Positions 13,205-61,243 of a stretch of DNA of 64,000 nt are shown here, piece by piece. The notes beneath the pieces were generated by a model. The model ran no database searches, was not told the origin of the DNA, and worked only from the letters and a program-made list of their open reading frames with translations. The first letter of the stretch is position 1, and every line of letters starts with the position of its first letter. The DNA comes from Xanthostigma xanthostigma (taxonomy: Eukaryota; Arthropoda; Insecta; Raphidioptera; Raphidiidae). Position numbers and translations under genes: made by a program. Location of the stretch: contig OY754467.1 in NCBI GenBank assembly GCA_963575645.1, positions 4,774,001 to 4,838,000 on the forward strand. The letters are read 5' to 3'.

Positions 13205-13934
13205 AAAGAAAAAGGTGTTCTGGTTTTAAAAATCTATCCTGTATATTAACATTGGACATATGCATATTGGTATTATATTTCGCTGCATCTTTGTGCAGAT
13301 AATGAATTGAAGAAATATCCATAATATGAAATTAAAAATTTTGGAATGATACTAAAACTAGGGGATCGTTTTAAAAAAAAAACAGGAACTGCATCGCGTT
13401 CTTAATTTGACAGGCGATCCGGGATAAAAGCAGAATTGACAATTTTACTGAACTGAACATAAAAAAAAAACTAAAATATAACGTAGATAATATTTAACAA
13501 ACTGCCTTTAATTAAAACAAAATGAAATAAAGGTGAACTTAAATCGCCTTTGTTAATAAATATCAGTTTTATTGGATTAGAATTTGTGACACAGACTTAT
13601 TAATATTAATTATAATAATAATAATAACGAAGGGCACTATTTTGTGAACACTTTTTTAAAAAATAAAGATATTTAAATTAAGTACACTGAACATTGTGAA
13701 TTTTAATAAATGCAATGTGCTAAGAAAAGAGAATTGTTCATTTTAATTTTTTTTTTTATTAAAATGAAATTAAAATATTGTAAACAATTAAATTATAATG
13801 ACGTCATTGTTTTGTACTAACACAGTATAACGAAAAGTTTTACTCCTGCCGGACACTTTAATTCTGTTTTCTTGTGACTACCTGCGATGTTCTTGGAGGT
13901 GCAAACATTCAGTACCATAACCTATTGGTGTAAA
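13205..13934. other. AT-rich intergenic stretch
   Basis: No gene or repeat recognised apart from short homopolymer and (ATA)n runs near 13610. Confidence 0.35.
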
Positions 13935-14617
13935 AGCTGGCTACGGAGAAAATGGGTGACTCGGTGCAAAGCTGAAAATTTGCAGAATAATAGGAGATAG
14001 TACAAGTAAGTAGGGAAAAAATTGCCAGAAGGCTAGGCGGAAGATAAAGGGCCGCCAGAAGGCGCTAATGTTGCGAAAAATCAGTGCACTTCTGGCAATT
14101 TCTATACTTATTCTGTAATTCAAAACTAGATTATATATTATATATATTATACATTATATGGGCATACTGAAAATTCAAACATGATATAATAATTACATTC
14201 GACAAATATTCAAAATTATTAATGGCATTTTGATAGAAGTAAAATTAAATAAATTAATAAAATTACGTAATTTTATTAATGAAAATATATGACGATTAAT
14301 TTTATTTCTATCAAAATGTCATTAATAATTTTGAATATTTGTCGAATGTAATTATTATATCATGTTTGAATTTTCAGTATGCCCTTATAACTATATAATG
14401 TATAATATATAATCTAGTTTTGAATTACAGAATAAGTATAGAGATTGCCAGAAGTGCACTGATTTTTCGCAACATTAGCGCCTTCTGGCGGCTCTTTATC
14501 TTCCGTCTAGCCTTCTGGCAATTTTTTCCCTACTTACTTGTACTATCTCCTATTATTCTGCAAATTTTCAGCTCTGCACCGAGTCACCCATTTTCTCCGT
14601 AGCCAGCTCTCCGTCTA
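13935..14617. mobile_element. Long palindromic element P1, copy A
   Basis: About 680 bp inverted repeat. The outer sequence agctggctacggagaaaatg is mirrored at the right by cattttctccgtagccagct, followed by ccgtctat. Arms of about 320 bp are nearly identical; only a short central region containing 'aaaattacgtaatttt' lies between. Each arm has a 60-codon open frame shared by all copies, but it comes from the arm sequence and shows no protein family. Other copies: 25431, 53331, 57231. Confidence 0.75.
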
Positions 14618-24628: not shown

Positions 24629-25430
24629 AGTAAAGAAGTATACAACAAAAAATGACGACCTGAATTAATACTAAAAAATCGACTAAGCGACTAATCAATT
24701 TTTAAGTTTTGTTAAAATAAGAATAACTGGGTATTTTGTACATATCTATCAATACCTTCGCATGTAGTATTGTAAGAAATATATATATTAATAAACACGT
24801 AAAATATTAGCTCACAATTTTTTTATATAAAAAGTCACAATGTCGTTAGTTATGTATTATTTTATTTATTTAAAAAAATACGGAGCGTTAATGAGCTCAT
24901 TTCCTTGACCTCTTATTTAGGCCAGTGCGAAAAAAATACTCTTTATTTTTTGCACTTGCTGACCTAAAATAACTAAAGTTATAGCCAATTGATCGATAGA
25001 AACAATGAATGCATGCATTAATTAGCATCGTTTTTTGTACAATTTCCACGTCAAAACAACATTTTTCTAACCATTTGGATCAAAATTTAACCAGAAAAGC
25101 AATATTTTTCTATATTTATATTTTTCTATATCATTTGTTTTTGTGTGACTACACTCTAATCTTTCTACATCTAGGTGCCATTTTTTTTCAAAATTTTTAA
25201 TGTAACCATGACGTACCGACAAGCAGCAAACGAAATTTAGTTGTCAAAAAAATTAATCAAACACAGATAATATATTGAGCGCCATGAAACTTTTACGTAT
25301 TTGTTATTCAATTTTTTAAACATCTAGATATTTTTAGTTATTACACCTCAAGTAATGTCGTGCCCATAATAATCTGTCGCGTGCCATCTGTGGCACGCGT
25401 GCCATAGATCGCCACCCCTGTTTTATAGCG
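24629..25430. other. Intergenic stretch with an orphan hAT end
   Basis: Mostly AT-rich. Near 25385-25420, 'gcgtgccatctgtggcacgcgtgccatagatcgccacccctg' (reading toward the right) is a typical hAT-type terminal inverted repeat, but I find no left partner. Confidence 0.4.
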
Positions 25431-26122
25431 GAGAGCTGGCTACGGAGCAAATGGGTGACTCGGTGCAGAGCTGAAAATTTGCAGAATAATAGGAGATAGT
25501 ACAAGTAAGTAGGGAAAAAATTGCCAGAAGGCTAGGCGGAAGATAAAGAGCCGCCAGAAGACGCTAATGTTAGGAAAAATCAGTGCACTTCTGGCAATTT
25601 CTATACTTATTCTGTAATTCAAAACTAGATTATATATTATTATATATATTATACATTATATAGTTATAAGGGCATACTGAAAATTCAAACATGATATAAT
25701 AATTACATTCGACAAATATTCAAAATTATTAATGACATTTTGATAGAAATAAAATTAATCGTCATATATTTTCATTAATAAAATTATGTAATTTTATTAA
25801 TTTATTTAATTTTATTTCTATCAAAATGACATTAATAATTTTGAATATTTGTCGAATGTAATTATTATATCATGTTTGAATTTTCAGTATGCCCTTATAA
25901 CTATATAATGTATAATATATAATCTACTTTTGAATTACAGAATAAGTATAGAAATTGCCAGAAGTGCACTGATTTTTCGCAACATTAGCGCCTTCTGGCG
26001 GCTCTTTATCTTCCGCCTAGTCTTCTGGCAATTTTTTCCCTACTTACTTATACTATCTCCAATTATTCTGCAAATTTTCAGCTCTGCACCGAGTCACCCA
26101 TTTTCTCCGTAGCCAGCTCTTA
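25431..26122. mobile_element. Long palindromic element P1, copy B
   Basis: As 13935-14617: left 'gagagctggctacggag', right 'ctccgtagccagctctta'. Arms of about 320 bp are nearly identical; the central spacer is short and AT-rich. Confidence 0.75.
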
Positions 26123-26769
26123 GTCTATTAGATGACAGAGAGTTCTACAAAATTACACTGCTCCTGAGGTATGGAAACTGTAATTATATTATCACAGTCT
26201 AAGGTTATTGTCAAATCAAATTTTTTGGCAATCCTTTCTGCAATCGAGCAATGCGCCCATCGTAATAAAATTAATTTTATTTCATTACAGTATCGTATTT
26301 ACGAAATATTTACGTACCGGCATGAAAATGTTAATTGATTATATCGACGCGCTTTTGTTTTATATTCGGAATATTTCTTTTATGGCCTCATTTCGACTGG
26401 ATGTAAAATACTTGTTTTTTTTTCTTTTGAAATTGCTAAATTATTGGTTCGGATGCATGAAAGAAAGGGTATTAGAAAGCACAGCTGTTATAGGATTTTT
26501 ATAGTCAGTTGTAAAATTGCTATTCTAAAGCTAACATCGGTCTGCAACCGGAAAAACTTGTCACCGTCTCAAATAAACGACTGTCGTAATTCAGATGTTA
26601 TTTTATTAGGTAGATATTTGTAGGTTTATACGAAGTGGATCAAAATAACAACCGCAAAATTCATGTGTATAAGAAATTGATGAATATGATGAAGCAATGA
26701 TTTTTTTGTACGACTTCTAGATTTATGAATATCGTTTGTTTTTAACTGATAAAAAAACTTAAAAAAAAT
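26123..26769. other. Intergenic stretch
   Basis: A 98-codon frame (26208-26504, +) is hydrophobic and AT-driven with no family; I do not treat it as a gene. Confidence 0.3.
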
Positions 26770-28886: not shown

Positions 28887-30446
28887 TCACGCAAAACGGT
28901 TCATATCACTGCTATTATTAAGCAAAACAATATCAATTTCATCTTCCGTTTTTGACAAAAAACTATTTATAAACTCAGTCCAACTCTTCTCCCATTTTTT
29001 AATTGCGTTCGTTTTTTGCACGTCGCCCATTGCACTATAAATTAACGAATTCAAAGCCAGCTGTTTTAAAATTCTTATGTCAGCTTCACGACTCGACAGT
29101 CCCATAAACGCTGCGTAAAAATCGTAGCTCAATCCCTTTGCTCCCCAAAAACTGGGGTCGTCGTTACAAATGACGACAGGATAATTATTGGCTATGTACA
29201 TATTGGCTGGATGGTTCCTGAGATCATCTACCAGCTTAAGAACTTGGTTAGATATCGGACTCACCTCGATAGCGATACCTCTTTGTTTAACAAGTTCCAA
29301 TACTTTTGGATGCTTCATCAACGCATAACCGTGTCCAATTCGGGTCGTTCCCAAAAGAACAGCGTCGACTACATTCAAATCTGTACTTGTACCGTACCAG
29401 TTCGTTTCTCCGGCGTGAAAAAACAATTTTATACCACTCTTCGATATCTCTTGCAATTCCTGTACAAAGTCCATTAATGGCAATCCTAAATCTTCCTGAC
29501 CAACCAAATCGAATCCAGCAATAAAATCAGTATATTTCTCGACCAGTTCGTGAAGAACTTTCATGTAATGATCGAACGTGACTGCAGAAGCGTGTCTTAA
29601 TGGAGCGTATATAAATTTTGCACCGTAAAAATCCGGATAATCCAACATAAATTGATCGAGAACTTTTTTATAAATACCGACAACTTGGGTTTCGTTGTAG
29701 ATCGTGCCATTTAATTCATAAACTGGAGGCAAAGTACCTCTCATCTCCACGTACATAACGTTGTCTTCGTAATGCTCTTTCAAAACTTGGTAGAAATATT
29801 CCTCGAATACAGGTCTGTAAGTCAACATTGGTTCTATTGTTAAAAATATGGAAATGAATTTCTGCCAAACAATATTGATGTCTAAATAAATTTTCGTTGG
29901 ATTATCAACAAGCAGTGATAATTGTCTGTGTAAATAATCGTCAAATTGAGTCAAATTGGCTGCATTTGTGCGCATGTCCTTCAATAATGACCAGTCATCG
30001 CCCTGGGGTTTCTCATCGAAGAACTTTAAAGACAGTTCTTCATTTTCGTTGATCTTTCCGTAAAGATTGTCTCTATATGTCAGATTAAAAACAAATTCGT
30101 GCGAAGCTAACGCCGTATCGTGTCCATGAAGTAACGCTCCTTTTGGCATTTTCTTTACGAAATTATTAAAAACAGACGAGTCTTCAATTTCGTCTTTCGC
30201 AAAAAAGAAATGTTTAGCCGGTGGAAATCTTTCTGGATCTAGAAAACCCTTGTCGTATTCACTGTACTTCTGCGTCATTAATAAAGTATTGACAATTTCT
30301 TCATTTTTCGTTAAACTTAAATTGCCGCCGATTATCTGGTTCGCTTCCAGCAAGAGAAAGGCGTGTCTCTGATTCCAATAATCAGCTTTTGTTAAAACAA
30401 ACGATACACACACCAACGTCACGAGATTTAAATTCACTGCAGACAT
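28887..30446 (-). CDS. Adgf: Secreted adenosine deaminase-related growth factor (ADGF/ADA2 family), gene 1
   Basis: Secreted adenosine deaminase: adenosine to inosine plus ammonia, acting outside the cell. It is intronless, 519 residues from the chosen start, normal for the ADGF family. A signal peptide covers about residues 1-21 (MSAVNLNLVTLVCVSFVLTK), followed by the ADGF N-terminal domain. The deaminase core has the zinc pair H107 and H109 (K-G-A-L-L-H-G-H-D), H344 and E347 (F-F-H-A-G-E-T-N-W), H372 (R-I-G-H-G) and the D429-D430 motif (C-N-D-D-P), so it should be active. N-glycosylation sites include NLT and NET. An in-frame ATG 12 codons upstream (30480-30482) is not used here because it falls upstream of the Inr-predicted start site and would spoil the signal peptide. 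Its nearest relative is the tandem gene at 34331-35830. Which ADGF subclass it belongs to is not decided. Confidence 0.93.
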   Translation of the reverse strand: MSAVNLNLVTLVCVSFVLTKADYWNQRHAFLLLEANQIIGGNLSLTKNEEIVNTLLMTQKYSEYDKGFLDPERFPPAKHFFFAKDEIEDSSVFNNFVKKMPKGALLHGHDTALASHEFVFNLTYRDNLYGKINENEELSLKFFDEKPQGDDWSLLKDMRTNAANLTQFDDYLHRQLSLLVDNPTKIYLDINIVWQKFISIFLTIEPMLTYRPVFEEYFYQVLKEHYEDNVMYVEMRGTLPPVYELNGTIYNETQVVGIYKKVLDQFMLDYPDFYGAKFIYAPLRHASAVTFDHYMKVLHELVEKYTDFIAGFDLVGQEDLGLPLMDFVQELQEISKSGIKLFFHAGETNWYGTSTDLNVVDAVLLGTTRIGHGYALMKHPKVLELVKQRGIAIEVSPISNQVLKLVDDLRNHPANMYIANNYPVVICNDDPSFWGAKGLSYDFYAAFMGLSSREADIRILKQLALNSLIYSAMGDVQKTNAIKKWEKSWTEFINSFLSKTEDEIDIVLLNNSSDMNRFA

Positions 30447-30471
30447 CGTAATGTGACCGCACTTGTTTAAC

Positions 30472-30511
30472 AAATGAATCACTTGTCTGATAAATCTTTG
30501 GTTTATATATA
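30472..30511 (-). promoter_or_regulatory. TATA and Inr core promoter of ADGF gene 1
   Basis: On the minus strand a TATATATAAA box spans 30502-30511, and an Inr match TCATTT spans 30472-30477, with the start A at 30475. TATAAA begins 32 nt upstream of that A, the expected spacing. This gives a 5' UTR of about 29 nt before the ATG at 30446. Confidence 0.6.
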
Positions 30512-34330: not shown

Positions 34331-35830
34331 TTACAGCTCTTCCTTTTCCGCTGCAAAACTATTAACAAAAACATTCCAACTATTCTCCCATTGTTTTATA
34401 GCATTTGTTTTTTCGGTTTCACTCATCGAACTATAAAGTAAGGAATTCAAAATTAACTGCTTTAAAGTTCTCAAATCAGCATTGCGATGCACAAGTCCCA
34501 TAAATGTTTCGTAAAAATCGTAGCTCAATCCTTTAGCGTCCCAATAAGTGGGATCATCATTACAAATCACTACCGAAAAATTATTGGCAATGTACATATT
34601 AGCTGGATGATTTCTCAAATCGCCCACCAGTTTCAACACTTGATTAGATATAGGACTTACTTCAATTGCAATACCTCGTTCTTTAACAATTTCCAAAACT
34701 TTGGGGTGCTTCAACAAGGCAAAACCATGCCCGATTCTGCTCGTTCCCAAAAGTACAGCGTCTACCAAATTTAAATCCGTACTTGTGCCGTACCAATTCG
34801 TTTCACCAGCGTGAAAGAAAAACTTTATTCCGCTTTTAAATAACTTTTGTAATTTCGGTATAAATTCGAGAAGAGGATGTCCTAAACTTTCTTGACCACA
34901 AATATCAAATCCAGCAACAAAATCTGGATATTTTTCAACCAATTCATGCATGACCTTTGAGTAATGTCCAAAAACGTTTTGGGAAACTCTTCTAATGGGA
35001 GCGTAGATCAGTTTGGCACCGTAAAAGTCCGGATAATCCGACTTGAACTTATCAAGAACACTTTTGTATATACTAGCAACTTGGATTTCGTTATAGATCG
35101 TACCGTTTAATTCATAAACTGGAGGTAAAGTTCCTCTCATTTCCAAATACATAACGTTGTCTTCGTAATGCTCCTTCAAGACTTGATAGAAATAATCTTC
35201 AAAGACCGGTCTGTACGTGATTAGTGGCTTCACAGTCGAATTTTTTTGGACGAATTTTTTCCAGACTGCGTTTATATCAGGATACATGTCTTCTGGATTG
35301 TCGACCACAAGTGATAATTGCCCGCGCAAAAAAAGATTAAACTCCGTCAAATTATTTGCTTCTTCTCGCATGTTTCTTAATAATTTCCAGTTACCAACAG
35401 TTGGTTTTGAGTTAAAAAATCGTAATGAAAATAATCCTTCCTCGTACCTTCCGTAAAGATTATCTCTGTACGTCAAATTGAACACGAAATCCAAAGATGC
35501 CAAAGCAGTGTCATGGCCATGCAACATTCCGCCTTTTGGCATCTTTTGAATGAATTTGAAAACACTTGATTTTTCGATGTCTTTCTTCGCGTGGAAGAAA
35601 TGTCTTGCCGGCGGAAATGTACCAGGATCTAACACTGCCCGATCAAATTCAGTGAACTTTTGTTCCATTAATAGTTTGTTGACTTTGTTTTCCTTTTCGT
35701 TTAACTTGATATTAGCGCCTATTGTCATTCCGGCTTCTTCCGATAAAAAAGCATCTCTTTCTTTCCAAAAAACGGCAATTGATTGCGAAAAATATAAACA
35801 CAATAACGCGAATTTTAACAAAGCAGCCAT
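34331..35830 (-). CDS. Adgf: Secreted adenosine deaminase-related growth factor (ADGF/ADA2 family), gene 2
   Basis: Second ADGF, in tandem with the gene at 28887-30446 on the same strand, about 3.9 kb upstream of it. Intronless, 499 residues. The signal peptide covers residues 1-19 (A-A-L-L-K-F-A-L-L-C-L-Y-F-S-Q-S-I-A). Deaminase core: H104 and H106 (G-G-M-L-H-G-H-D), H340 and E343 (F-F-H-A-G-E-T-N-W), H368 (R-I-G-H-G), and D425-D426 (C-N-D-D-P). All zinc and catalytic positions are present, so it should deaminate extracellular adenosine. The longest shared stretch with gene 1 runs from Y-R-P-V-F to N-G-T-I-Y-N-E. The C-terminus is about 12 residues shorter than in gene 1. The ATG chosen is the first one and gives a clean signal peptide. 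The pair probably arose by tandem duplication of an already intronless gene. Confidence 0.93.
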   Translation of the reverse strand: MAALLKFALLCLYFSQSIAVFWKERDAFLSEEAGMTIGANIKLNEKENKVNKLLMEQKFTEFDRAVLDPGTFPPARHFFHAKKDIEKSSVFKFIQKMPKGGMLHGHDTALASLDFVFNLTYRDNLYGRYEEGLFSLRFFNSKPTVGNWKLLRNMREEANNLTEFNLFLRGQLSLVVDNPEDMYPDINAVWKKFVQKNSTVKPLITYRPVFEDYFYQVLKEHYEDNVMYLEMRGTLPPVYELNGTIYNEIQVASIYKSVLDKFKSDYPDFYGAKLIYAPIRRVSQNVFGHYSKVMHELVEKYPDFVAGFDICGQESLGHPLLEFIPKLQKLFKSGIKFFFHAGETNWYGTSTDLNLVDAVLLGTSRIGHGFALLKHPKVLEIVKERGIAIEVSPISNQVLKLVGDLRNHPANMYIANNFSVVICNDDPTYWDAKGLSYDFYETFMGLVHRNADLRTLKQLILNSLLYSSMSETEKTNAIKQWENSWNVFVNSFAAEKEEL

Positions 35831-49809: not shown

Positions 49810-50880
49810 ATGTCTGAAGAAACGTCAAAAATTGTGTTTAAAAGAAAGAGCAGAAAACCTCTGAGAAAACGACAACAGTCATCTGATGAAAGTGAATCGT
49901 CAGAAGAAGAAAATGTTCGGTAAAATAAATTTATGTTATTTGTTATACGACTACATTTGCCACTTGAAAATTAATATTAATTTGGAACAGGAAAACATTA
50001 GAAGAAATGAAAGAACTACAAAAACTTCGCGGACGTCCCAATGGAGTAAGTGTAGTAGGACTTGCCCTTGGTAAGAAAACGACCATCGAAGAAGAAATAA
50101 CAGTAAGTAGCAACTTATTTTTCATAAACTACATTTTGTAAACTATTTTTTAAATAAATTGAATATTTTAGAAAGATCCGTTTAGAATAAACAGCGGCGG
50201 TTTAATAAACATGAATGCCTTAAAAAGCGGAAAAATCAAAACGAATGATGATGCATACGATACAGGAATAGGGACACAATTTTCAGCAGAAACAAATAAA
50301 CGCGACGAAGATGAAGAGATGATGAAATATATTGAAGAGCAATTGTCGAGACGCAAAGGAACAGATAGTGGCGATGAAGGCAAAACAAAAAATGAAACTA
50401 ATGTGGAACAGGAACAAAATAAATACTTCACTCCTGAAGAAGCTGCCCTTCAAGCTGTACCAAAACATTTGAAAGAATCGTCAACGCAACGATCTGAAGA
50501 AATGTTATCGAATCAAATGCTCAGTGGTATACCGGAAGTTGATCTTGGGATCGATGCTAAAATTCGTAATATAGAAGCAACGGAAGAAGCTAAGCTCAGA
50601 CTTTTATGGGAAAAACATAATAAAAAAGATGGTCCATCACAATTTGTGCCCACCAATATGGCCGTCAATTTTGTACAACATAATAGATGTATGTAATTTT
50701 TTTTTTCCTGACTGATTTTTTCTTTCTTGTTAGTGTATTTGCCATAAGGCACTTACACTATTGGCGTCGGTCGGATGGCGGGACCTAGGGGTCGGACCAA
50801 AATTTCTCGACGTTTCATAACTTTCTAAGAAGTTTGGCACCATTTTTGGAAATGTTTATATATATATGTATATATATATA

Positions 50881-52982: not shown

Positions 52983-53330
52983 TTAATACTATAAGATGCC
53001 AATTCATCGGTTCTACAGCAGAATCTGTTGATCACAGCTATTTATATAAAACGACAATTTTAATTTTTTTTTAATATTTATAAATAACAATATGTTAGAG
53101 AATAAAGATTGCTAGACAGGACGTGATTTGTGATCTGTTAATTTTTCCCAAACATTCAAAACAGTTATTTTTCTAATTTTGTTGAAATATGTGCAATTTT
53201 CGTGTAGAGAAATCAATATTTGATAGCAGCGTTAAATTGTTACAAATTTGCGAATAACTTGGTACTAGATCGGCATAGAAATGCCAATATTATTATGGCG
53301 TTTGTATAATTCATTCAAATAACTCATAGA

Positions 53331-54033
53331 CGGAGAGCTGGCTACGGAGAAAATGGGTGACTCGGTGCAGAGCTGAAAATTTGCAGAATAATAGGAGATA
53401 GTACAAGTAAGTAGGGAAAAAATTGCCAGAAGACTAGGCGGAAGATAAAGAGCCGTCAGAAGGCGCTAATGTTGCGAAAAATCAGTGCACTTCTGGCAAT
53501 TTCTATACTTATTCTGTAATTCGAAACTAGATTATATATTATACATTATATGGTTATAAGGGCATACTGAAAATTCAAACATGATATAATAATTACATTC
53601 GACAAATATTCAAAATTATTAATGACATTTTGATAGAAATAAAATTAATCGTCATATATTTTCATTAATAAAATTACGTTGTTATAACAATGTAATTTTA
53701 TTAATTTATTTAATTTTATTTCTATCAAAATGACATTAATAATTTTGAATATTTGTCGAATGTAATTATTATATCATGTTTGAATTTTCATTATGCCCTT
53801 ATAACTATATAATGTATAATAAATATAATATATAATCTAGTTTTGAATTACAGAATAAGTATAGAAATTGCCAAAAGTGTACTGATTTTTCGAAACATTA
53901 GCGCCTTCTGGCGGCTCTTTATCTTCCGCCTAGCCTTCTGGCAATTTTTTCCCTACTTACTTATACTATCTCCTATTATTCTGCAAATTTTCAGCTCTGC
54001 ACCGAGTCACCTATTTTCTCCGTAGCCAGCTCT
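53331..54033. mobile_element. Long palindromic element P1, copy C
   Basis: Left 'cggagagctggctacgg', with the outer 'tagacggag' matching the right flanks of copies A and D; right 'ccgtagccagctctta'. Near-identical arms of about 320 bp. The spacer contains 'gttgttataacaatg', as in copy D. Confidence 0.75.
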
Positions 54034-54189
54034 TAGCCAGAAGTGTCAATTTATAAGTTGAATCCATATAGTTATAGTAGTTCGAAACCTTAAATAATTA
54101 AATAAAAGGATGTTTTTAATTTTTACAACCAGTTCTCAACCGAGAACTGCAAATCCCAAATCATAAATGTATTTATCATTATGTCAAGT

Positions 54190-55551: not shown

Positions 55552-58500
55552 ATGACTACCTTACAGCAAGTAAGTATTTATTTCTTATTTACTGCTCATA
55601 ATGACTTACAAGTAGGTTTACATATTGCATAAAAATGTTTTTATAGATTATTCGTCCCTGCATACGACCGATTGTTCGGGCATTATCAACCAGTGCTAAA
55701 TTAGAAAGTTCTGCTGCTGCTACTCAATCTAATGGCTACAGCTTTGGTAAGGAATAAACTTTTGTTTTTACTACTGTCATTTGTTTTTAAATATGAACAT
55801 AACCTTACTAACTGATTCTCACCAATGTTATAAACTAAACTTGTATGTTGTTATTTAGAACTTAACGATACCCAGAAAGAAGTTCAAGAGGTAGCGAGAA
55901 AATTTGCAAGAGAAGAAATCTTACCCGTAGCAGCTAAGTATGATAAAACCGGAGAGTACCCGTGGGAGATTGTCAAGAAAGCATGGGAGTTGGGTCTAAC
56001 AAATGGTCATATTCCGGCCGATATTGGTAATTACAATAAAAAAATCTATTATTCAGTAGTTTCAGTCGACGTTTATTTACAGGATCTATTTTATAGGTGG
56101 AATGAACATTGGTGTTTTTACCGGTTGCTTAGTCGTAGAAGAATTAGGTTACGCATGCTCTGGAATACAAACTGCAGTTGAAGGAACGAACTTAGGTGTA
56201 AGTTAATGTTGTATATTATATTTTCAGGCGGTTTGAATATCGGTGTATTTGACGGCTGTCTTGTAGCCGAAGAATTAGCTTACGCTTGTACGGGAATCAT
56301 GACTGCGCTTGAAGCTAGTGGGCTTGGTGTAAGTATGGGATTGTATGTTTCTTTGTGCTCAGTTGGAATATGTGTGTGTTTTTAAACTAAACAATAACTG
56401 TATTGTACTTTTAACCTGTACTGTTCTTTTAAAAGGACCACGATTCGATTTATTTAATTGCCAGTTTGTCAATTGTTTTTAGTTAATCATCCCGAAGAAG
56501 TTTTATAAATGTTACTTTTGGTTGTCCTGTCAATGTAAAAATGTACTAACGAGTTAGAAATTTAAAGGCATGCTAGGGATACGAATTTTTTTTTACACCG
56601 ACAGTTCTGGGACTGGCTAGTTTAATTCGCATTTCTGAAAACTATCAGAATGTTCTTTTTTTAAACTTAAGCTTTAAAGGGAAAGAGAACGTAAAGAAGT
56701 TATAATAATTATTGTTGATCATAATTGGCTTGTTTACCATTTTCATAAAATGCTTCTAGTGAAGTCATAAGGATAAAAAAATAATAAAAAAACATTGATT
56801 TTGTGTAACCTACAAAAGCATTAATCATTCATTTAACATCTGTACTTGTAAAAAAAATAATACGCATGCAATTTTGTGAACTTCTGTAAATTAAGTCAAC
56901 AAAATTCTCATTTATATTTTTAGCTTTTCTCGTTTTTTTTAATTTGTTATCTAATTTTTTGTGGTGTGCAAATCATGCAGGGGCATAGCTACCGCAGTAT
57001 CAATGATACAGGACCCCCGGACTAACGTGTTCATTTGGGTTTCGCCGCAGTCGGGTACAAGGACCCTTTGACAAATTGACAAATCACCTGACACTCTAGA
57101 CCTTTTTAATGTTTATAATATTTTATTTCAAAGATAATTATAATTACATCCCATTATAACTAACTGCATTACAAATTTTCAATTACATAATACACATTCT
57201 TAACAAGACTATATCATTTGGATTTTGGACTAAGAGCTGGCTACGGAGAAAATGGGTGACTCGGTGCAGAGCTGAAAATTTGCAGAATAATAGGAGATAG
57301 TACAAGTAAGTAGGGAAGAAATTGCCAGAAGGCTAGGCGGAAGATAAAGAGCCGCCAGAAGGCGCTAATGTTGTGAAAAAGCAGTGCACTTCTGGCAATT
57401 TCTATACTTATTCTGTAATTCAAAACTAGATTATATATTATATATATAGTTATAAGAGCATACTGAAAATTCAAACATGATATAATAATTACATTCAACA
57501 AATATTTAAAATTATTACTGACATTTTGATAGAAATAAAATTAATCGTCATATATTTTCATTAATAAAATTACGTTGTTATAACAATGTAATTTTATTAA
57601 TTTATTTAATTTTATTTCTATCAAAATGACATTAATAATTTTGAATATTTGTCGAATGTAATTATTATATCATGTTTGAATTTTCAGTATGCCCTTATAA
57701 CTATATAATGTATAATATATAATCTAGTTTTGAATTACAGAATAAGTATAGAAATTGCCAGAAGTGCACTGCTTTTTCGCAACATTAGCTCCTTCTGGCG
57801 GCTCTTTATCTTCCGCCTAGCCTTCTGGCAATTTTTTCCCTACTTGCTTGTACTATCTCCTATTATTCTGCAAATTTTCAGCTCTGCACCGAGTCACCCA
57901 TTTTCTCCGTAGCCAGCTCTCCGTCTATATATCATTGCCACAGTTACTAGAAACCATTTACATGAATGGATATTGTTTTGGAATAAACACTACAAATTAC
58001 AATAATTATTTTATTCAGTACCTATTGTATTTTAAATAATATGTTTATTTACAGCAAATGCCAGTTGTAATCGCGGGAAATAAGGAACAACAGAAAAAAT
58101 ACTTGGGACGCTTAATTGACGAGCCTTTGGTTGCTGTAAGTTTTAAAGAATGTTTAATACTAAGGGTTTCATTATACAAGTTGTGGAGGATCGCGATCTC
58201 TCCATAATACATGTCAACAGATCATACGCATTAGTCGCTGTATAATTTTCAGAATTTCTATCTGTCTATCCGTTTTTTCAACATTCACTCAAACGAAAAT
58301 TTACTCAATCCATTGTCTTATTTTAATTAGACTAAGATAAGAATCTAAGGGGTGTTGAACGCCAATCTGATTAATGAATATTTCTTTTTGGTTTATGCCG
58401 AGTAGCTGTTGGGATTTGACATAAAACGATACGACGTCTGGTGACAGCAATTTAAACCATAAACACACGACATTTTACGTGCTGTTAGCTGTTACAGTAT

Positions 58501-61243
58501 GTAAACGCGTAAGGTGCACATAGGGAAATTAGCATTGGGAAAAATACTTGGATCAGAGTTAGCCATGACTGCATTAATTGTTATTTCTATTGAATTATCG
58601 TCGTAATCTTGATGATTTCTATTTTATTTTGATTCATTTTTATTTTACTTGGCTTTTTTTAATAATAAAAGGCTCTTATAAATCGTTATTTTAATTTTTT
58701 TGTACAAAAATAAAACAAAAAAACAACTCCATCTGTTTGGAAACATTTCATTCAAAAATTGTCTGACTGGTATGACGTATGCGCGTTGGTAAATCAGTGA
58801 CCTAATGTCTTTAGGTTCAACACGAATAGGCGGAGATATTTGATCTCGCACCATATTTAAGTATTTTTGGGAATTTAATGTCCCATTAATAAAAAAAGTC
58901 CGATTATGTTGTAATCATTTGAATATTTTCTTCGGTAGTATACACATTCATTTTGCAAAAAAATATTATCTGTCAAATTGAAAAACAAGATTTCAAGGCT
59001 CACTCTGATCCAGTCATTTTTTCCCAATGTTAATTTCCCTACGTGCACCTTACGTGTTTACATACTTTATACCTACATGAAAAATTGTGGATTTGACATT
59101 ACATTTGGCCTAACACATGTCAAATCCCAACGGGCTTGGATACTATTAGAAACAAAGATTGTAAACAATAAGCAAATAAAACAAATTAACTCATATTCGT
59201 ATGATTAGTTCGAAAAATATGCAGGAAAACAAGTAATATGTGTGGATTTTATAAACTTGAAAATGAGTCAGTTGCCAAGTATTTTAGAAATGACTGATAA
59301 AGTCCAAAGATATATTCTAAATATTAAATACAAATGTTGACAGGATGTTGGCTTCTTTTAGTTTTTCTTTTAAAATATATTAATAATGGGCAGCATTTTA
59401 GGGCCTTTATATTAAAATTTCTTTTTTTTTAAGAAAATTATCTTTAACCTAACAAAATTTTTTTCCATACTCAATGAGACTCGAGGGAATCCCCCATGTA
59501 GCAAACAGAAAAAAAATTGAGAGAATGTCATAAACTAGAATTAGGTACCAAAACCTCATTTTGTCGCCACAGACCCTCACAGCTTTAAAATTTTAGACAA
59601 ACTTCGAACAAATAAAATTATTTGAAAGAATAATCAAAAAATTATATTGTTCAATATCAATATCGTTACATATAATAGATTCAGATGTAAAAATTCTGCA
59701 ACTTAAGTTTTAAAAACTAACTTTAACAGTAATGGTAATGAATTCCATTTAATTCGTAGGCTTACTGTGTGACTGAACCAGGTGCAGGCTCTGACGTAAA
59801 TGGAGTCAAAACAAAAGCTGAAAAGAAAGGCGATGAATGGATTCTTAACGGACAGAAAATGTGGATCACGAATGGTGGTGTTGCCAATTGGTATGCTGAA
59901 TAATATCGATTTAACAATTTTGAAAATCGAATATACCTTGGTCTATTCTTTTGTTTTCCAGGTATTTTGTTTTGGCTCGTACAAATCCAGATCCGAAATG
60001 TCCAGCGAGCAAGGCTTTCACCGGATTTATTGTCGAACGTGACTCTCCTGGACTAACTCCCGGCAGAAAGGTTTGTCTCCTTTTGCGCCAATATCATCAT
60101 CATATATATTAATACGCTAAGGTTAAGATGTTTGCCTCCCTTTTTAGAAAAAACCACACTACTTCTCCACATAAATTATATATCATTTTACAGATAATTG
60201 CTTGCTCTACTGACATCGACAACTAAAAAAATTATTATTGCTTTTGTTTTTGTAAATTAATTAATTATTAGCAACACTGAACAACGTCTGCCATCTGACG
60301 GCGCAACGCTGAACAACGTCACAGCAATGCTGCATGATGCCATCTGACGACTTAGCTCAACGCTTTTGCTACTTGCGCCTCTATATGACAATTTTAGTAA
60401 AATATTTCTTCGATCTGTCATCTGAGCTTCATATTGTAATACAACAAAAAGAAGAACGTTATAAGCAGTGTGCAAAATTAGAAACGAATTGAATACCTGC
60501 AATCATATTTAAAAAATAATTTTGTAAAGTGATAATTATTATACTTATTTAGTGCGAATAATTCGCACAGGTCACACTAGTTTTATATATTGCTCTAATA
60601 CTGTGTTTAAATTTTAGGAAATTAATATGGGCCAACGAGCATCTGATACAAGAGGCATAACGTTTGAAGATGTCCGAGTTCCAAAAGAAAACGTACTTCT
60701 TGGTGAAGGACAAGGTTTTAAAATTGCGATGGGTGCTTTCGATAAAACACGTCCTCCTGTATGTGTTGAAATATTTAACCAACTAAAATTTAAACTAGAA
60801 TAAATTAATGACTTGAATTTTAGGTTGCTGCAGGTGCAACAGGCTTAGCTCAAAGATGTTTGGATGAGGCATCGAAATATGCACTCGAACGGAAAACGTT
60901 CGGCGTTCCGATTGCGGCGCATCAAGCTGTAGGCTTTATGTTAGCCGATATGTCTATAGCCGTAGCGACATCTCGATTGTCCTGGCAAAAAGCTGCATGG
61001 GAAGTTGATCAAGGGCGCCGCAACACTTTGAATGCTTCGATAGCTAAATGCTATGCAGCCGATGCCGCTAATAAATGCGCTACCGATGCTGTGCAAATAT
61101 TCGGTGGAAATGGATTCAATACTGAATATCCAGTTGAAAAATTAATGAGAGATGCTAAGATCTATCAAATTTATGAAGGCACTTCACAAATCCAGCGTAT
61201 TATTATTTCGCGTGAAGTGATCGAACATGCCAAAACATTGTAA
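55552..61243 (+). CDS. Mcad: Medium-chain acyl-CoA dehydrogenase, mitochondrial, with two alternative exons 4
   Basis: Mitochondrial flavoenzyme for the first step of beta-oxidation: medium-chain acyl-CoA to trans-2-enoyl-CoA, electrons to ETF. Exons: 55552-55569, 55647-55746, 55859-56026, then either 56097-56197 or 56228-56328, then 58055-58135, 59760-59890, 59962-60070, 60618-60758, 60824-61243. Every junction is GT/AG and in phase; 422 residues with either exon (human 421). A transit peptide covers about residues 1-30 ([14 protein letters not shown]). Seen: the N-terminal helical domain (exons 3-4), the flavin-binding [11 protein letters not shown] and M-W-I-T-N-G-G (exon 6), E-R-K-T-F-G, and the catalytic base E401 in [10 protein letters not shown] (exon 9), the counterpart of mature human Glu376. 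Exons 8 and 9 split D-K-T-R-P-P/V-A-A-G. Introns 4, 5 and 7 hold a P1 palindrome, a mariner-like remnant and a Helitron. Active-site residues are all present. Confidence 0.95.
56097..56197 (+). other. Mcad: Mcad exon 4a (mutually exclusive version a)
   Basis: 101 nt, acceptor 'ttttatag', donor gtaagt. Encodes [16 protein letters not shown] then [18 protein letters not shown]. The Q and E in I-Q-T-A-V-E align with Gln95 and Glu99 of mature MCAD, so this version keeps both residues that close the acyl pocket. Confidence 0.85.
56228..56328 (+). other. Mcad: Mcad exon 4b (mutually exclusive version b)
   Basis: 101 nt, acceptor 'attttcag', donor gtaagt. Encodes [16 protein letters not shown] then [18 protein letters not shown]. 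Same length and phases as 4a and about 65% identical in protein. The position of Gln95 is Met here; Glu99 is kept. Only 30 nt separate it from exon 4a. Confidence 0.88.
57231..57928. mobile_element. Long palindromic element P1, copy D, in Mcad intron 4
   Basis: Left 'taagagctggctacgg', right 'ccgtagccagctctccgtctat'. Arms of about 320 bp, nearly identical; spacer with 'gttgttataacaatg' as in copy C. It lies between Mcad exon 4b and exon 5, so the Mcad pre-mRNA must contain a long hairpin. Confidence 0.78.
58404..59135 (-). mobile_element. Mariner/Tc1-like remnant with inverted ends, in Mcad intron 5
   Basis: gctgttgggatttgacat at the left is mirrored by 'atgtcaaatcccaacgggc' at the right. 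Further in, 'atgtaaacgcgtaaggtgcacatagggaaatt' is mirrored by 'aatttccctacgtgcaccttacgtgtttacat'. On the minus strand at about 58740-58895 is a transposase fragment [17 protein letters not shown], a pattern typical of mariner/Tc1-type DDE transposases. The transposase is otherwise lost. Exact family not decided. Confidence 0.65.
60100..60580 (+). mobile_element. Non-autonomous Helitron, copy 4, in Mcad intron 7
   Basis: TC start at 60100 (tcatatatattaatacgc), hairpin gtgcgaataattcgcac at 60552-60568, CTAG end at 60577-60580, followed by T. The shortest copy, without the internal duplication. The TC triplet is repeated just upstream (atcatcatc), so the exact start could be 60094 or 60097. Confidence 0.78.

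Follow-up and report, generated by a model that had tools for sequence, protein, structure and literature searches.

The kind of exon switch described here is already known from the exon pairs of ACOX1 and ACSL. The peroxisomal oxidase ACOX1 and the medium-chain acyl-CoA dehydrogenase (MCAD) belong to the same ACAD/ACOX superfamily, and the ACOX1 isoforms reportedly show a chain-length difference, according to the work of Oaxaca-Castillo in 2007 and Vluggens in 2010. In human ACOX1, tandem duplicated exons substitute for each other over 55 amino acids, 28 of which are conserved, and all five predicted FAD-binding residues are retained in the pair (PMC9741552). In ACSL1 and ACSL6, mutually exclusive exons swap a short motif at the fatty-acid entry site, the alternatives differing by a Phe or Tyr residue (PMC1543647), and ACSL6 isoforms that carry distinct gate motifs are unequal in activity (PMC2868784). 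Mutually exclusive exons in general are recognized by their length, their splice-site type and frame, the homology of the encoded protein, and the presence of one exon per transcript (PMC3228551). A distance of less than ~50 nt between the donor and the branch point is the proposed steric limit for U1 and U2 to be accommodated together (PMC7969005; PMC5740500); 57 human clusters (9%) are assigned to this steric-exclusion class (PMC5740500), and OGDH exons 4a/4b and the α-tropomyosin pair are kept exclusive via a branch point near the upstream 5' splice site (PMC7969005). No title among the literature matches listed, a partial coverage that leaves novelty unproven, deals with alternative exons of Mcad, and the literature searches made met no exon-switch case in a mitochondrial acyl-CoA dehydrogenase.

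The window, i.e., the whole 64,000-nucleotide stretch of Xanthostigma xanthostigma DNA analysed in this study, contains a complete medium-chain acyl-CoA dehydrogenase gene (Mcad) on the plus strand at positions 55552-61243. The coding part of exon 1 with the start codon ATG (55552-55569, donor CAA/gtaagt), exon 2 (55647-55746), and exon 3 (55859-56026) are bounded by GT-AG introns with the frame intact; exon 3, which exits in phase 1, is the final common exon 5' of a pair of alternative exons, a (56097-56197) and b (56228-56328). On the 3' side of the pair, an 81-nt exon (58055-58135, acceptor tttacag/CAA, phase 0) is followed by exons of 131 nt (59760-59890), 109 nt (59962-60070), and 141 nt (60618-60758), and by the last coding exon with the stop codon (60824-61243). 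The coding sequence is 1269 nt long and encodes 422 amino acids in an open frame, regardless of whether it includes exon a or exon b.

Both proteins contain the Pfam acyl-CoA dehydrogenase N-terminal, middle, and C-terminal domains. When a 196-residue part of each was compared with solved structures, human and pig MCAD were the top matches, with 327 bits (a) and 331 bits (b) for the human enzyme, followed by 176 bits (a) and 183 bits (b) for Thermus MCAD and by 123 bits (a) and 121 bits (b) for the first enzyme not titled MCAD. The full-length b protein matches pig MCAD at 671 bits and aligns without gaps to residues 30 to 419 of the human precursor. The catalytic Glu376 is present as the Glu of IYEGT, which lies at mature position 376 in the last coding exon, common to both forms (mature numbering according to pig MCAD, 1udy). 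By these sequence comparisons, the gene is that of MCAD, the orthologue of ACADM, and a medium-chain preference is predicted.

Exons a and b are each 101 nt long, enter in phase 1, exit in phase 0, have GT-AG splice sites, and share the identical donor GGT/GTAAGT. They encode homologous versions of the same 34 residues (residues 71 to 104 of the mature enzyme), 24/34 of which are identical, at a nucleotide identity of 66/101, and a tblastn search of the window with exon a found exon b at an E value of 8e-13. No third copy was found within the window, in which neither exon has a further match with an E value below 0.76. The coordinates, lengths, and phases given in an initial annotation of this DNA were reproduced, and it is near certain that the exon pair is real. 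Joining of a to b breaks the frame, as had also been claimed, with a stop that follows the second codon of b and limits the product to 131 amino acids, and skipping of both exons leads to a stop after 104 amino acids. The ACSL1 and ACSL6 genes resemble Mcad in having an exclusive exon pair at the acyl site of a fatty-acid enzyme, but they encode an acyl-CoA synthetase, and transcripts with neither exon exist for them, in contrast to the early stop in Mcad.

The gap between the two exons measures 30 nt (56198-56227; GTAAGTTAATGTTGTATATTATATTTTCAG), in agreement with the earlier claim, and is too short to serve as an ordinary intron; it begins with GTAAGT of the donor of a and ends with TTTTCAG of the acceptor of b. 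The only branch-site-like motif of the form yTnAy in this gap is TTAAT (56203-56207), which starts at the sixth and last base of the donor of exon a; the branch A of this motif lies at a distance of 9 nt from the donor and 22 nt upstream of exon b. A yTnAy motif is located 16-40 nt before the acceptor in 5/7 constitutive introns and is absent in 2/7 (the intron after the pair being counted once). Both the gap and the distance of 9 nt between the donor and the candidate branch motif are below the ~50 nt that define the steric class. OGDH is likewise a mitochondrial enzyme with an exon pair, and the α-tropomyosin pair consists of exons 2 and 3; their branch points are located at 25-46 nt from the donor, whereas in Mcad the entire gap measures 30 nt and includes a motif that overlaps the donor itself. 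Because of this overlap, binding of U1 to a should preclude binding of U2 to b, and vice versa. As judged from the motif, the branch site of b would sit within the donor region of a, the two snRNPs would compete for one stretch, and only one of the two exons would be spliced between exon 3 and the 81-nt exon. The proposal of one exon per transcript is well supported by this anatomy, i.e., by the gap, the frame, and the overlap of the donor with the branch motif, and both exons are likely to be used in a mutually exclusive manner.

The intron 5' of exon a is 70 nt long and contains the yTnAy motif TTTAC (56076-56080) 18 nt before exon a, followed by a decoy AG (56081-56082) 14 nt 5' of the exon that the initial annotation does not mention. 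Since the decoy lies between TTTAC and exon a, the latter may be a weaker, regulated exon; on the other hand, the acceptor of a scores above that of b (7.8 versus 7.0, with a constitutive range of 1.0-8.8 and a score of 4.0 for the decoy, by a matrix derived from only seven sites of this gene). Use of the decoy would add 14 nt with an in-frame TAG, and the decoy is a possible unproductive-splicing switch. The folding of the RNA at 56000-56360, which bears on regulation by a strong or competing local structure (the docking/selector class), is unremarkable (z = 0.76 for one fold of a single sequence).

Exon b is the one that more closely resembles known MCADs. Over the 34 residues, b matches human MCAD at 21/34 positions and a at 19/34, while the corresponding values for pig MCAD are 21/34 and 17/34. 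Bacterial segments were compared by using the best 80 of 212 relatives found, a set that serves for judging residues and is unable to date the duplication; 70 segments are nearer to b, 3 are nearer to a, and 7 are ties. Its closeness to the human, pig, and bacterial enzymes makes b the probable default, with a as a special and presumably regulated form, as judged from the sequences compared. The initial annotation had hinted that a, which carries Gln95, is the standard form, and this assignment is not supported by the same comparison. The segment of Drosophila Mcad is probably b-like as well, with Met.

Among these best 80 of 212 relatives, residue 95 is Ala in 37, Gln in 21, Ser in 12, Cys in 6, Thr in 2, Gly in 1, and Leu in 1, and this spread indicates that the floor position changes in the family. 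Residue 99 is Glu in 50, Met in 22, Gly in 7, and Tyr in 1. In counts uncorrected for kinship, Gln95 is paired with Met99 in 21/21 cases, Ala95 with Glu99 in 35/37, and Ser95 with Glu99 in 6/12; Ala, Cys, and Thr at position 95 are paired with Glu99 in 43/45. The 21 loci with Gln95 and Met99 (within L047-L079) are nearly all titled Caldilineaceae, Litorilinea, Anaerolineae, or Chloroflexi, and residues 95 and 99 possibly form a covarying pair at the pocket floor. Neither Gln95-Glu99 of a nor Met95-Glu99 of b occurs among the best 80 of 212. At the positions where a and b differ, the residues unseen in this set are Thr79, Val84, Val98, and Thr101 of a and Met95 and Ser101 of b; position 101 is Asn in 80/80. 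The Gln95 of a may have been either kept or regained. The six pattern matches in viral contigs included no relative.

In a structure modelled for one of the bacterial relatives (L003; 14/80 loci aligned, mean pLDDT of 89.4, best PDB match to human MCAD with 63% identity), the segment comprises a loop, the helix of residues 77 to 90, and most of the helix of residues 92 to 111, and residues 95 and 99 are on the second helix. Gln95 and Glu99 presumably line the pocket floor and close the acyl pocket in the MCAD structure; literature searches on this role of the two residues gave no match. The two versions differ at 10 positions (given as a/b): Met/Leu73, Thr/Asp79, Val/Ala84, Gly/Ala88, Ser/Thr92, Gln/Met95, Val/Leu98, Gly/Ala100, Thr/Ser101, and Asn/Gly102. 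Thr96, Glu99, and Leu103 are common to both, as is Glu376. The reading of position 95 as Gln in a and Met in b, with Glu99 in both, was thus accurate, and the claim that the exon swap changes the acyl pocket holds in part: the exon spans the pocket helix and residues 95, 98, and 100 differ, but Glu99, Thr96, Leu103, and Glu376 are unchanged, and with the first three of these retained, the effect on the pocket may be small. Similarly, the exchange of Gln for Met at residue 95 is a real change, although the two side chains are of similar length and this residue is variable in the bacterial relatives of MCAD.

The two products would be working MCAD enzymes that differ solely in residues 71 to 104, so that the pocket helix would be changed at residue 95 (Met in b and Gln in a) and at the neighboring residues 98 and 100. 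Such changes would be expected to tune the acyl-chain preference or the turnover rather than to act as an on/off switch, and there is about an even chance that a and b differ in this respect too. The closest likeness is found in ACOX1, in which a tandem exon pair also overlaps the equivalent pocket helix. ACOX1 and the MCADs align at the TE motif; the solved human ACOX1 chain is isoform 2, and its differences from the presumed stretch of isoform 1 end just before IIGTYAQTE. The alternative stretch of ACOX1 includes MCAD positions 95 and 96 and ends near 128 by this alignment, which may be off by two or three residues; within the same uncertainty, Glu99 is aligned to Asp of isoform 2 and to Gly of the presumed isoform 1. 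The ACOX1 pair differs from that of Mcad in that it belongs to a human peroxisomal oxidase and has other exon borders, which reach further toward the C terminus.

It is also conceivable that the exons are exclusive without any change in substrate and that they instead set the stability of the enzyme, its contacts within the tetramer or with the electron-transfer flavoprotein, or the level of expression; in the latter case, the decoy AG and the skipping of both exons would yield unproductive mRNA. The fact that 7/10 of the a/b differences are away from residues 95, 98, and 100, together with the retention of Glu99 in the pocket, is in line with this explanation, whereas the inclusion of the pocket helix in the segment, the seven residue types found at position 95 in the best 80 of 212 relatives, and the location of the ACOX1 and ACSL pairs likewise at an acyl site argue against it. 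We regard it as possible, though less likely than not.

The pair appears to have arisen from one exon. Human ACADM has exon borders at the same codons as Mcad (387/388 and 708/709); unlike Mcad, which has two exons at this place, it has a single exon, CDS 287-387, of the same length, and the human introns after c.216 and c.945 are absent from Mcad. In the gap-free alignment, the Mcad borders 387/388 and 708/709 coincide with the sites of the human ACADM splice variants c.387+1delG and c.709-1G>A, and the variant c.945+2T>G marks the human intron after c.945 (PMC8025081). Because these borders are old, the pair is best read as a tandem duplication of the ancestral MCAD exon that ends at CDS 387, the copies of which would have come to be spliced mutually exclusively.

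The divergence of a and b falls mainly on third codon positions, with differences at 8/33 first, 7/34 second, and 20/34 third positions. The NG86 estimates are a dN of 0.25 and a dS of 3.75, which means saturation, and the same codon is kept in only 10 of the 24 common residues. The near-saturated third positions and the slow second positions indicate an old pair that was largely kept as protein. The ratio of the position 2 rate to the position 3 rate is 0.21 (bootstrap interval of 0.06-0.50, 4882/5000 replicates usable), which sets an upper limit on the portion of the path without constraint. When a copy was simulated as unconstrained for half of the path, the open frame and the four splice bases survived in 3% (a) and 4% (b) of simulations, which were without indels. 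With all 35/35 changes neutral, 24 identical residues were reached in 0/20000 runs, whichever exon was the starting point, while with 17 neutral changes, at least 24 identical residues remained in a fraction of 0.33-0.34 of the runs, so that the amino acid identity alone is weak evidence of constraint. Long neglect of either copy is therefore unlikely, as judged from these substitutions, and the pattern may still be compatible with one copy having lost its use recently.

Such a recent loss would fit a gene that makes one enzyme and carries the other copy, more likely the more diverged a, as an unspliced relic. Exon a has Thr79, Val84, and Val98, which are unseen in the best 80 of 212 relatives, is the nearer copy for only 3/80 of them, and is preceded by the decoy AG at 14 nt; b alone has the unseen Met95, and both copies have an unseen residue at position 101. 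Against this, exon a has a full open frame of exactly 101 nt, the same GTAAGT donor as b, an acceptor score of 7.8 inside the constitutive range of 1.0-8.8, and the retained Thr96, Glu99, and Leu103, and we consider this explanation improbable. The placement of two alleles or gene copies side by side by a collapse of the assembly, for which no supporting point was found, has a negligible probability, because 35/101 differing bases with third positions near saturation are far beyond the divergence of alleles and the ungapped flanks of 60 nt on each side agree at only 3-7/10 positions per block.

The best explanation thus combines exclusive splicing with an altered enzyme, and the two together have, as far as the sequence can tell, an even chance of being correct. 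In a wider and more tentative form, which we hold to be plausible but short of probable, one Mcad gene would give two mitochondrial enzymes and mixed tetramers with differing chain preference by means of an ancient steric exon switch that is independent of that of ACOX1 at the same pocket helix and that matches β-oxidation to tissue or diet. Should both exons be in use, one gene would supply two natural versions of a core mitochondrial fat-burning enzyme, which differ at 10/34 residues in and around the acyl-pocket helix. Such a pair would be a natural experiment on the determinants of chain length in acyl-CoA dehydrogenases, and MCAD would be the third fatty-acid enzyme, after ACOX1 and ACSL, to be varied by an exon swap at the acyl site.

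Other features were observed in the window. An element of ~690-700 bp is present in four copies (13931-14615, 25429-26123, 53329-54036, and 57230-57925). Compared with the other three, the copy at 57230-57925 shows matches of 93-95% in one orientation and of 91-93% in the opposite one; since it also matches its own reverse complement (93%), the element is of the foldback type. This copy is situated in the intron of Mcad that follows exon b, and the pre-mRNA would contain a very long hairpin at this place. Two adjacent long open frames on the minus strand (28887-30482 and 34331-35830) encode adenosine deaminases, with the Pfam domains A_deaminase and A_deaminase_N in both, and an open frame on the plus strand (50211-50696) matches the Pfam family Hep_59 with an E value of 7.7e-32.
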